Source of the DNA: Vicinamibacteria bacterium | GTDB taxonomy: Bacteria > Acidobacteriota > Vicinamibacteria > Fen-336 | Direction: 5' to 3' | DNA length: 39,944 nt | NCBI GenBank assembly: GCA_035570235.1 | Contig: DATMML010000098.1 | Coordinates: forward strand, 1 to 39,944 | Part shown: in pieces, positions 36,579 through 39,944 of the stretch | How the letters are laid out: every line of letters begins with the position of its first letter | How positions within the stretch are numbered: position 1 is the stretch's first letter | Notes under the pieces: model-generated | Database searches by the model: none | What the model was told of the DNA's origin: nothing | Seen by the model: only the letters and a program-made list of their open reading frames with translations | Translations under genes and position numbers: made by a program

Positions 36579-36905
36579 CTAGCCTGGCGAATGGAGTGCC
36601 ACGAAGGATTCGATCCGAGCCAGCGTGAACGGAGGCAACGGGGCAAAGAAGATGGCCAGTCTGTGCGCGCCTTCGACGTGCGTGACCCTAACGACCTCGC
36701 CCCGCACGAGTGTCTCCCCGCCCGTTCCGGGCAGCTCCAGAACTACCTGAAGGGGCGTGCCGACGGGAAAGGCCTCCGTCGTCTCGATGAGAGCGCCTAG
36801 GCGGGACAGTGATTTGAGTTGTGCGGCGAACGAGCACTCCCCTCGCCGAACACGGACTGGCACCTCGACCTCTCCTCGGGGGGCTCCGCGGCGGTCGCTG
36901 GTCAT
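36579..36905 (-). CDS. PilZ-domain protein
   Basis: A 108-residue single-domain PilZ protein. It begins RRGAPRGEVEVPVRVRRGEC with the Arg-rich N-terminal c-di-GMP motif, followed by SLSRLGALIETTEAFPVGTP, where the usual (D/N)xSxxG is LSRLG, and then GEVVRVTHVEGAHRLAIFF. It probably binds or once bound cyclic di-GMP; the altered second motif may weaken binding. No strong ribosome site precedes ATG 36905. Confidence 0.8.
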   Translation of the reverse strand: MTSDRRGAPRGEVEVPVRVRRGECSFAAQLKSLSRLGALIETTEAFPVGTPLQVVLELPGTGGETLVRGEVVRVTHVEGAHRLAIFFAPLPPFTLARIESFVALHSPG

Positions 36906-36996: not shown

Positions 36997-37629
36997 TCAA
37001 TCGTGCCTTGAGCCCGACAATGCGGTTGCCAAGCCCAGAGTGATGTAGGTCGACCCGGCCAGGTACCTTCCCGACCGAGCCAGGCCGGTACGACCCTTCA
37101 GCCAGACGGCGGCCGTGCTGGCGGCGAGAGCCCACGCCGAGTCCGTCACAATCGCCATAGTGACGAAGGTCATCCCCAAGAAAAGTACCTGGGGGACCAG
37201 GGATCCTTGGGGGTTAACGAACTGCGGAAGAAAGGCCAAGAAAAACAGAGCCGCCTTTGGGTTAAGAGCATTGACAACTGCGCCCTGCCAGAAGATTCGC
37301 CGAAGAGACTCGCGGGCGGGAGCCGCCTCCGCAACCTCAGTGCCGGCGCTTAGGAGTTTCTGTAGTCCTAGCCAAATCAAGTAGGCGGCGCCCGCGTACT
37401 TCAAGACACTGAAGGCGAGCGCTGACGACGCGATGATCGCGGAAAGGCCCAAGGCGGCTGCGGTCACGTGAAGGAGACCGCCAAGGCCAATTCCGAGGGA
37501 CGAGACAAGCCCCGCGGTGCGACCCTGGCTCAGGCTTCTAGCAACGATATACGTGACAGCTGGCCCCGGCGTCATGAGGAGAATGAAGGCTGCAACCACG
37601 AACAGACTCATCGCGGCACTGCTTGGCAT
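36997..37629 (-). CDS. LysE/RhtB-family amino-acid exporter
   Basis: A 210-residue inner-membrane protein with six hydrophobic segments and family motifs: LFVVAAFILLMTPGPAVTYI, then GLVSSLGIGLGGLLHVTAAA, KYAGAAYLIWLGLQKLLSAG and WQGAVVNALNPKAALFFLAF, LPQFV. The NPGP-like MTPGP and NPKA elements mark the LysE/RhtB export family, which moves amino acids such as threonine or homoserine out of the cell. The substrate is not predictable. A GAGG site precedes ATG 37629. It stands alone. Confidence 0.95.
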   Translation of the reverse strand: MPSSAAMSLFVVAAFILLMTPGPAVTYIVARSLSQGRTAGLVSSLGIGLGGLLHVTAAALGLSAIIASSALAFSVLKYAGAAYLIWLGLQKLLSAGTEVAEAAPARESLRRIFWQGAVVNALNPKAALFFLAFLPQFVNPQGSLVPQVLFLGMTFVTMAIVTDSAWALAASTAAVWLKGRTGLARSGRYLAGSTYITLGLATALSGSRHD

Positions 37630-37804: not shown

Positions 37805-39944
37805 CTAGAATGCGAACCCGGCGCGGGCGTAGATGCCGTTGTGTCCCTCGCTCCGCCCGTAGGAGACGCTCAGGGTGTTGGCGCGGTCGAGCCAGGCGAA
37901 CCAGAGCCCGCCCCCGTAGCCGGCGTGCCACTTCGTGGAGGTCTCAAGGCTGTAGTAGACGCGACCCACGTCGCCAAAGCCGAGGATTCCCCAGGACCCG
38001 GGCAGGAAGATGTGGAATTGCGAGATGTAGATGCGGAGGTCGGCGTTTCCGTAGATCGCGGCGTCGCCGGCGTACCGGTGGCGCTGCAGCCCCCGCACCG
38101 GCTCGTCTCCCGCAGACGGCCCAAACCCGCCCAGCCCCCCGCCCAGGTAGGCTGCCTCGAAGTAAGGGTAGTTGCCGAAAACCTTCTTCCCGCCCGCCCG
38201 CAGGGCCAAGGTGGGGGCCTTGTCACCCCCGGGGGTCAAGTAAGCAGCGGCCCTTCCCTCCACCGAACCAAACGTCTCCAATACGTCCCAGGCCTTGGGC
38301 CAGACCTGGCCCGTGACGCGTACCTCCGCCCCGCCCCGGGGGTAGCCGAGGCTCCGGAAGGCCATGCCCCCCGGCGCCTTGGACGCCTCGACACGGGTGT
38401 CCAGCTCCAGGGTGCCCGTGCCCCCGACCTCACCAAAGTCTCCGTACCCGTACGGCCGCTGCAGGTTGATGAGGGCGAGGTCCTGCTTGTGTTGGCTGGA
38501 GCCGTACTTGATGGTCGGGCCCAGGGAGAAGGTGAGGTCCTTAGCGATGGGAATGAAGACGCTGGGCGTGAAGCCGTACTGCAGCTGCCTGGACTTGAAG
38601 ACATCGGAGTTCTGGTTCCCGCCGTCTCCTGTCTCGTTTCCGAAGCCGAAGAAATGGCTCGCCTCGACCCCGGAGGCAAAGGCATACCAGCCCACGTAGA
38701 CTCCCCGGTTCTCGAACCGGAACTCCGCCTTGTAGTCGGCCCGGAACGTGCTCTCCGCCGTGGCCCAGGCGGCGCGGATGATGTGGCGGCTCGAGTAGGG
38801 CTCCTTGCGAAACCCGAAGGCCTGGGTGTCAATCCCGCCCCCGATGAGGGCGCCGAGGTCGCTGCCGTACGAGAGCCAGGGGACAAAAAGAATGTCTCGC
38901 CCCCAGTCCCGGGGTGGGATCCAGGAGGCGTTCTTGGGGGGTAGCGGGGGGGTGTAGGGCTGGCGGTCGAGGTGAGAGCCGGGCCCCGGGAGGAGCTCGC
39001 CCGATCCGGTGTCACTGAGCCGCGTGCCCCCGCCCTTGGTATCGTCCACCACCGCATGGCCGCGCCCTCCGATCACGCGCACCGTGATGCTGTTGGGCTT
39101 GCCCAGCGTGACGACGCGGTCGTTGCCGCCCTCGAGGTAGATCTGCACCTCCTGGGTCTCGCCCTTGTGCAGGGTGCGACGGAAGAAGGGCTCCCCCGTA
39201 GGCTTGCCGTCCTCTCCCTGCCGCCAGACCTGGACGAGGGTGTCCCCGTTGTCGAGCCGCTTGACCTCTACGTACTCCGGCCCGTCGGTCAGGTAGACCT
39301 TGACCTTGTCCGCGATGTACTCGTAGAAAGCCTCCGCCCCCGCCACCAGCCGGTCGCGCCGGCCCTTCAGGTCGTGGATGAGCCGCGCCCCATCGATCTC
39401 GAAGTACTCGGGGGGCATGCGATGGGCCGCTTTCTCGATCGCTTCGTCCGTGATCTGAGACTTGAGCTCCTGGGCGACCTCCTTCCAGACCGGCCGCTCG
39501 AGGCCAGCCAGGAGCTGACGGTCCTGGTCCCGGCCGTTCCAGGTGAGACCCTCCATCCCGGGATAGTGGTCGCTGTAGTTCTGGAGGATGGGGACGCGGG
39601 GCCGGGCGAGCGCGAGAACGAGGCCTTCATAGCGACAAAACGCCTGGTCCCGGTCGTCCGGGATCGGCTGCCAGAGCTCCTTCTCCGGGAACTTCGCCCA
39701 GCGCCACTGGTCGCGGTGCCGATCGAAGTCCCCGATCATGATGTCCAGAAGGCGCGCCTTCAGCAGGGCCCGGGCGTCCGCCCGATCCTTGGAGTCTGTT
39801 TCCATCCGCTTGTAGAACACGTCGTGTTTCAGGACCTCCGTCGCGCCCTGGAAACCCGGGTTCTTGTCGGACTTGGCGCCCGGATACTCGTAGACCTGGC
39901 CCACCAGACCCGCAAAGTCCTTCCGGAACTCCCCCAGTGCCGGG
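37805..39944 (-). CDS. surface protein with kinase-like motif and C-terminal outer-membrane barrel (5' end outside window)
   Basis: The frame is open to the right edge of the window, so the start is missing; about 713 codons are visible. Near its visible start IMIGDFDRHRDQWRW and PIPDDRDQAFCRY resemble the catalytic and metal-binding loops of HipA/FAM20C-like kinases. A beta-rich domain follows (VEVKRLDNGDTLVQVW, IYLEGGNDRVVTLG). From about residue 320 a membrane barrel with alternating aromatic strands begins (FGFGNETGDGGNQ, PYGYGDFGEVGGTGTLELD) and ends IYARAGFAF with a terminal Phe, typical of BamA/D15-type barrels. In relatives the missing N-terminal part is often a metallophosphoesterase. 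The function is unknown; it is probably in the outer membrane. Confidence 0.8.
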   Translation of the reverse strand, partial: PALGEFRKDFAGLVGQVYEYPGAKSDKNPGFQGATEVLKHDVFYKRMETDSKDRADARALLKARLLDIMIGDFDRHRDQWRWAKFPEKELWQPIPDDRDQAFCRYEGLVLALARPRVPILQNYSDHYPGMEGLTWNGRDQDRQLLAGLERPVWKEVAQELKSQITDEAIEKAAHRMPPEYFEIDGARLIHDLKGRRDRLVAGAEAFYEYIADKVKVYLTDGPEYVEVKRLDNGDTLVQVWRQGEDGKPTGEPFFRRTLHKGETQEVQIYLEGGNDRVVTLGKPNSITVRVIGGRGHAVVDDTKGGGTRLSDTGSGELLPGPGSHLDRQPYTPPLPPKNASWIPPRDWGRDILFVPWLSYGSDLGALIGGGIDTQAFGFRKEPYSSRHIIRAAWATAESTFRADYKAEFRFENRGVYVGWYAFASGVEASHFFGFGNETGDGGNQNSDVFKSRQLQYGFTPSVFIPIAKDLTFSLGPTIKYGSSQHKQDLALINLQRPYGYGDFGEVGGTGTLELDTRVEASKAPGGMAFRSLGYPRGGAEVRVTGQVWPKAWDVLETFGSVEGRAAAYLTPGGDKAPTLALRAGGKKVFGNYPYFEAAYLGGGLGGFGPSAGDEPVRGLQRHRYAGDAAIYGNADLRIYISQFHIFLPGSWGILGFGDVGRVYYSLETSTKWHAGYGGGLWFAWLDRANTLSVSYGRSEGHNGIYARAGFAF

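Follow-up and report, generated by a model that had tools for sequence, protein, structure and literature searches.

The window, by which we mean the whole 39,944-nucleotide stretch analysed here, ends in a gene whose product joins a predicted kinase-like domain to an Omp85-type outer-membrane barrel. Its frame, referred to below as the window gene and its translation as the window protein, is open at the 5′ end because the contig (C98) stops there, and comprises the following features:

37805-39943, minus strand: 3′ part of the kinase-like and Omp85 barrel gene, 712 amino acids, with the 5′ end past the contig end
39311-39943, minus strand: C-lobe side of the predicted kinase-like domain, fragment residues 1-211, boundary transferred from the model of a relative, L008
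39698-39733, minus strand: GDFDRHRDQWRW, putative catalytic-loop motif (DRHxxQ), conserved in relatives
39638-39658, minus strand: DDRDQAF, putative DFG-equivalent metal-binding motif, conserved in relatives
38954-39310, minus strand: predicted β-strand linker with GGxxD-like repeats in the usual POTRA place, boundaries approximate, from the alignment and strands 347-458 of the L008 model
37808-38953, minus strand: predicted outer-membrane barrel of Omp85 type with a terminal Phe, left limit approximate, from the Omp85_fam match and the homologous barrel model
38066-38098, minus strand: VRGLQRHRYAG (consensus LRGY), which we take to correspond to the 'RGY/RGF' loop motif of Omp85 proteins
Contigs C26 and C27 (loci L007 and L006): N-lobe of the kinase-like domain, from a match to profile A1

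The next genes on the same strand, at 36579-36905 and 36997-37629, encode a LysE-type exporter and a PilZ-domain protein with no evident link to the kinase-barrel gene. Neither points to a substrate, and the conservation of operons around the window gene was uninformative.

The last 106 bases at the cut end recur without mismatch on both C26 and C27, contigs that extend the frame and encode an N-lobe, so that the N-terminal continuation of the window copy has two candidates; profile A1 is matched over positions 135-353 in the window gene, 3-167 on C26 and 4-167 on C27. A second copy of the gene lies on contig C84 of the same genome, with 90% DNA identity to the window copy. Comparison of the two copies gives a dN/dS of 0.125 overall, 0.124 in the barrel and 0.076 in the kinase part (9 replacements), and that of the N-lobe pieces of C26 and C27 gives 0.234; both copies thus look maintained, with purifying selection acting between them. 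The first-pass annotation had suggested that a phosphatase domain might lie beyond the window edge. Since both possible continuations carry only a signal-peptide-like stretch and the N-lobe, with no PF00149 match on either, this genome's gene does not include one, and a search elsewhere in the genome for a relative of a split phosphatase found none, although that search ran without a positive control and shows little.

In its relatives such a fusion is common. We found 62 loci, mostly in Bacteroidota, with others in Acidobacteria, Ignavibacteria and a bin that is labelled Chlorobiota yet falls within Flavobacteriaceae. In the class of the window, 35 of 193 genomes match, its own included, although in ten of these the match is confined to the barrel end (E ∼4e-5 to 4e-4), and G016 contributes just a piece of barrel close to where a contig ends. 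The kinase profile matches 8 of 396 genomes of the window's phylum (again counting its own) and 143 of 395 genomes of Bacteroidota, the phylum of L063, with fused and unfused forms taken together. From 143 profile matches we removed 11 partial ORFs (ten pieces of this genome's two copies, and L078) and 6 identical domains, which left 126 distinct domains, 64 of them from the originally found loci, most of which had built the profile. The A1 and A2 alignments hold 55 and 51, respectively, of the 63 available domain sequences.

Three architectures make up this set, where "barrel" stands for a tail of over 330 residues behind the kinase domain (the shortest being 353) and not for a barrel match: phosphatase-kinase-barrel (81), kinase-barrel (29) and kinase without a barrel tail (16). 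Three of the last are unsure, L091 and L098 being truncated or interrupted and the second gene of L033 entering a masked stretch. The phosphatase was assigned by a profile built here, and Pfam confirms PF00149 in L011 and L063. In a tree of 99 rows, from which L091, L098 and near-copies were left out, the 19 Acidobacteriota rows, the window included, form one kinase-barrel set (100/96), and the distribution of architecture labels over the tree requires 7 changes.

The same components also occur as neighbours. In L136 and L137, a kinase-like gene whose N-terminus is lipobox-like, a Metallophos gene (E 2.6e-8 and 1.9e-6) and an Omp85 barrel gene (8e-13 and 2e-11) stand side by side on one strand, and in L033, from Ignavibacterium, the order of genes is kinase-barrel, SdiA-regulated propeller, Metallophos and, directly after the latter, the second kinase-like gene. 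These gene sets indicate that kinase, phosphatase and barrel belong together even where they are not fused.

Two further gene types recur nearby. An SdiA-regulated (PF06977, phytase-like) β-propeller gene lies within 1.6 kb at 26 of the 66 loci with both flanks read, in three phyla (L033:5849-6715; L080-L084; L011, L015, L020, L042, L052 and 21 Flavobacteriia loci). It is downstream on the same strand in L033 and five Acidobacteria loci of one genus, whereas the 21 Flavobacteriia loci have it downstream in convergent orientation; six of these genes were checked with Pfam. The propeller is a possible fourth partner; a search of the window's genome, with a control that was positive in E. coli, found no PF06977. 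A gene that combines an HD domain with a Pycsar effector membrane domain (PF18967) occurs near 27 loci, in many Flavobacteriia (e.g., L029:3139-4344 and L018:3073-4383), and is usually divergently upstream (23 of the 28 ORFs of the cluster, two of which were run through Pfam); this proximity may be plain synteny.

The first-pass annotation described the chain as ending in a BamA-like barrel with a terminal phenylalanine, and this description holds. The window protein ends in GFAF, and its residues 560-712 match NCBIfam Omp85_fam with an E-value of 5.6e-20, at 72 bits against a curated cut-off of 200. In Pfam, the barrel of the window protein itself goes undetected, and PF01103 is silent at both window-type copies; four of six relatives tested pass PF01103, and among 51 relatives PF01103 is found in 11 and ShlB in 27, with neither in L008. 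L008 belongs to Acidobacteria and shares 39% identity with the window protein, and both structural models discussed here are of L008 and not of the window protein itself. Its kinase and barrel model (51 sequences; pLDDT 83.8, pTM 0.80) places on one chain, in this order, the kinase part, short strands with GGxxD-like repeats and, from about residue 481, a barrel that superimposes on TamA with a Z-score of 24.9 (rmsd 3.3 over 294 residues); Sam50 and BamA score nearly as high. The proposed fusion of a kinase or pseudokinase to a membrane barrel is thus borne out at the level of a predicted structure.

No POTRA family was detected in the window protein or in the relatives searched, and the linker of L008 is modelled as strands throughout. 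Where the Omp85 superfamily is defined by the barrel alone, as in PMC4104836, the modelled C-terminal barrel would place these proteins within it, the window protein itself scoring below the NCBIfam cut-off; where at least one POTRA domain is part of the definition, as in the abstract of PMC11116518, window-type proteins fall outside. We also considered whether the window barrel is the BamA of this genome and rejected it: a separate frame on contig C15 matches the whole Omp85 profile (E 3.4e-54) and is the likelier BamA by sequence.

The kinase-like part is all but invisible to sequence searches. No Pfam family matches it in the window protein, and we know of no Pfam or NCBIfam kinase model that reaches its cut-off in this domain. 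Among 55 relatives, the Pfam CotH model is approached in one (L008; E 0.072, 13.0 bits against a cut-off of 23.8), Fam20C (E 0.0078) and HipA_2 (E 0.058) are matched weakly in one each, next to weak matches to unrelated families, and the kinase profile, run against PDB sequences, produced chance matches only. The AlphaFold2 model of the L008 domain (55 sequences; pLDDT 91.4, pTM 0.90) is more informative. Foldseek places Helicobacter pylori CtkA first (E 3e-5), followed by HipA (3e-4), and chains of these two proteins are the only ones to reach E <= 0.001; HipT, VPS34, CotH, PI4K-II and Fam20C follow lower down. TM-scores are modest (<= 0.53 among the matches listed), as expected for relatives this distant. 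By VIA, CtkA (Z 14.7, rmsd 4.3, 237 residues), CotH (14.5, 4.3, 254) and PI4K-II (14.4, 5.0, 265) are tied, at values to be read against the up to ∼13 that a common arrangement can produce in helical models. We conclude that the L008 domain is, as modelled, a bilobal protein kinase-like fold of the PI3K/HipA/CotH/FAM20 branch, and that the combination of this fold with a barrel is well supported by prediction, on a relative. Foldseek and VIA on this model rule out a non-kinase fold for the motif, which the first-pass annotation had named as the outcome that would refute it, and they agree with the initial view that GDFDRHRDQWRW and DDRDQAF resemble the active-site loops of HipA/FAM20-type kinases. 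A HipA toxin-antitoxin locus was considered as well and rejected, there being no HipB-like partner among the neighbours tested in this genome (LysE, PilZ, CarboxypepD_reg and a TIM barrel).

Several features bear on where this domain resides. Somewhere ahead of the kinase domain, a hydrophobic 15-residue stretch is present in 26 of 29 kinase-barrel chains, 75 of 81 phosphatase-kinase-barrel chains and 14 of the 16 others, a check that is a crude test for export and involves no signal-peptide predictor. A lipobox-like cysteine is present in 7 of the 16 chains without a barrel tail, and the kinase-only paralogues of L132-L135 have a strong N-terminal membrane anchor. These paralogues, of about 430 amino acids, share a C-terminal CF[ED]C ending, and their genomes contain, in addition, kinase frames some 1,200-1,270 amino acids long. 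Omp85 barrels have their N-termini in the periplasm. By analogy with this topology and that of PlpD, whose enzyme domain is placed in the periplasm by PMC11116518, and considering the lipobox and anchor of the paralogues, the kinase-like domain most likely lies outside the cytoplasm, in the periplasm. Delivery of the enzyme domain to the cell surface, where it would meet external targets, has a precedent in the original description of PlpD as surface-delivered (PMC4104836), but the later periplasmic placement of PlpD and the membrane-anchored, kinase-only paralogues both speak for the periplasm, and we regard this alternative as very improbable.

The putative active site is conserved and atypical (residue numbers refer to the A1 alignment and counts to the 126 distinct domains). 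The motif GDFDRHRDQW corresponds to a catalytic loop and DDRDQ to a metal-binding site; we take Asp208-Arg-His-x-x-Gln to be the DRHxxN loop of PI3K-type kinases with Gln in place of Asn, and Asp231/Asp233 (DxD) occupy the DFG position. Conservation is close to complete for Gly53 (125), Arg73 (125), Lys77 (125), Asp98 (126), Asp206 (121), Asp208 (119), Arg209 (125), His210 (120), Gln213 (124), Asp231 (126) and Asp233 (125), which rules out that the motifs arose by chance. All of these but Gly53 form a ten-residue set that is intact in 113 domains from three phyla and in the window copy, where the first three residues are on the C26/C27 continuations. A check of the ATP site, recommended at the outset, therefore gives a divided answer, as this set is kept while two canonical positions are changed: the strand-3 Lys is Arg73, and the Asn five residues past the catalytic Asp is Gln213, with Asn itself in 2 domains. 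That Arg73 marks the strand-3 position is supported by a degenerate member, L100, which has Lys there. In WNK kinases, a relocated Lys takes over the role of the strand-3 Lys, and Lys77, four residues beyond Arg73, may by analogy do so here.

Not every member appears to be functional. Asp208 is absent from seven domains, namely those of L012, L014 and L025, which are short forms of a Chitinophagaceae branch, one kinase-only gene each in L129, L130 and L131, and L100, and the loss of the catalytic Asp makes it probable that some members are inactive. L129 (3436-6775), L130 and L131 each hold two head-to-head kinase-only genes, one without the catalytic Asp (DWSRR) and one with it (DWDRH), reminiscent of FAM20A and FAM20C, which are a pseudokinase-kinase pair. 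The member in L100 (5920-8379), a short protein of Parabacteroides distasonis annotated as hypothetical (WP_005858089.1), has an eroded catalytic loop and adjoins a galactokinase gene set.

The changed Lys and Asn positions, together with the question of periplasmic ATP, which is not known to be available in that compartment, keep two alternatives to a classical kinase in play. One is a pseudokinase scaffold that performs no catalysis, binds a nucleotide or other ligand and substitutes for POTRA domains in gating or guiding the barrel during protein or lipid assembly. The nearly family-wide Arg for Lys and Gln for Asn, the seven domains without the catalytic Asp and the clearly degenerate P. 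distasonis member would fit this, as would the usual involvement of Omp85 barrels in assembly (PMC4104836). A binding scaffold, however, needs neither the joint retention of Asp, Arg-His, Gln and DxD in so many members across three phyla nor a phosphatase that is coupled to it repeatedly, and we consider this explanation rather unlikely. The other is a different transfer chemistry in the envelope, either AMPylation, which the kinase fold of SelO carries out, or phosphate transfer from a donor other than ATP. Its case is built on the atypical Lys and Asn positions and on the scarcity of ATP in the periplasm, but the order DRHxxQ ... DxD is, we presume, that of phosphotransferring PI3K/FAM20-type kinases, and the recurrent partner is a calcineurin-type phosphoesterase, even if phosphodiesterases share that fold; such a chemistry is, in our view, improbable.

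Residue conservation makes catalytic activity likely, and the reading we favour, with slightly better than even confidence, is that the window protein is a phosphotransferase of the PI3K/HipA/CotH branch that is tethered to the outer membrane by a POTRA-less Omp85 barrel, faces the periplasm and acts on an envelope substrate. A short β-strand linker would tie the kinase domain to the barrel, and the domain, presumably with ATP as donor, would phosphorylate a protein, a lipid head group or a glycan. In many Bacteroidota, a calcineurin-type phosphatase sits at the front of the same chain, so that one protein could both set and reverse the mark; in the lineage of the window, the phosphatase is absent.

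Parts of this family may already have been catalogued. Heinz and Lithgow (2014) described a 'Metallo' Omp85 subfamily with an N-terminal PF00149 domain, there called a metalloprotease, and a C-terminal barrel, and a 'noNterm' subfamily with no recognised N-terminal domain and a barrel similar to that of Metallo; the word 'kinase' is absent from the main text (PMC4104836). Our long relatives likewise have PF00149 at the N-terminus and an Omp85 barrel at the C-terminus, but with a kinase-fold domain in between, and the window gene lacks PF00149; the window form would look to Pfam just like noNterm but has about 350 residues of kinase fold. From these descriptions of the two groups, rather than from noNterm sequences, we infer that the survey missed a kinase-like domain in Metallo and that noNterm proteins may be short forms with this domain. 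The patatin-Omp85 proteins of the PlpD type also present a periplasm-facing enzyme domain on an Omp85 barrel, according to PMC11116518, but pair a phospholipase with POTRA, as opposed to a kinase fold and no detected POTRA in the window type. CtkA and HipA/HipT are the best Foldseek matches, yet share only 8-16% identity among the matches listed, and the window type differs from them by its membrane barrel, its putative export and the lack of a HipB-like gene among the tested neighbours. CotH, FAM20C and PI4K type II belong to the same fold branch and presumably have in common with the window family a DRH-type loop and an Asp-containing metal motif, but the window family is set apart by the strand-3 Arg with a Lys four residues on, the Gln for Asn and the barrel fusion.

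In the literature searched, by titles and the starts of abstracts and with subscription papers, preprints and supplementary tables outside its scope, we found no description of a kinase domain on an Omp85 barrel, and neither 'kinase' nor 'phosphatase' occurs in the main text of PMC12045153 and PMC12611786. A further paper, PMC10281475, has no relation to the subject. The Omp85 part has thus been on record since 2014, while the kinase in it goes unmentioned in the papers found. More tentatively, and at somewhat less than even confidence, we propose that these proteins represent an unrecognised, Omp85-anchored kinase family outside the cytoplasm of diderm bacteria, which in Bacteroidota is often fused to a phosphatase and would there constitute a self-contained, reversible periplasmic switch in need of a nucleotide supply. 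If active, they would be kinases fixed at the inner face of the outer membrane, in many cases together with a phosphatase of their own, in an envelope where kinases are not expected, and would raise the questions of what they phosphorylate there, which source supplies the phosphate and what makes an Omp85 barrel necessary.
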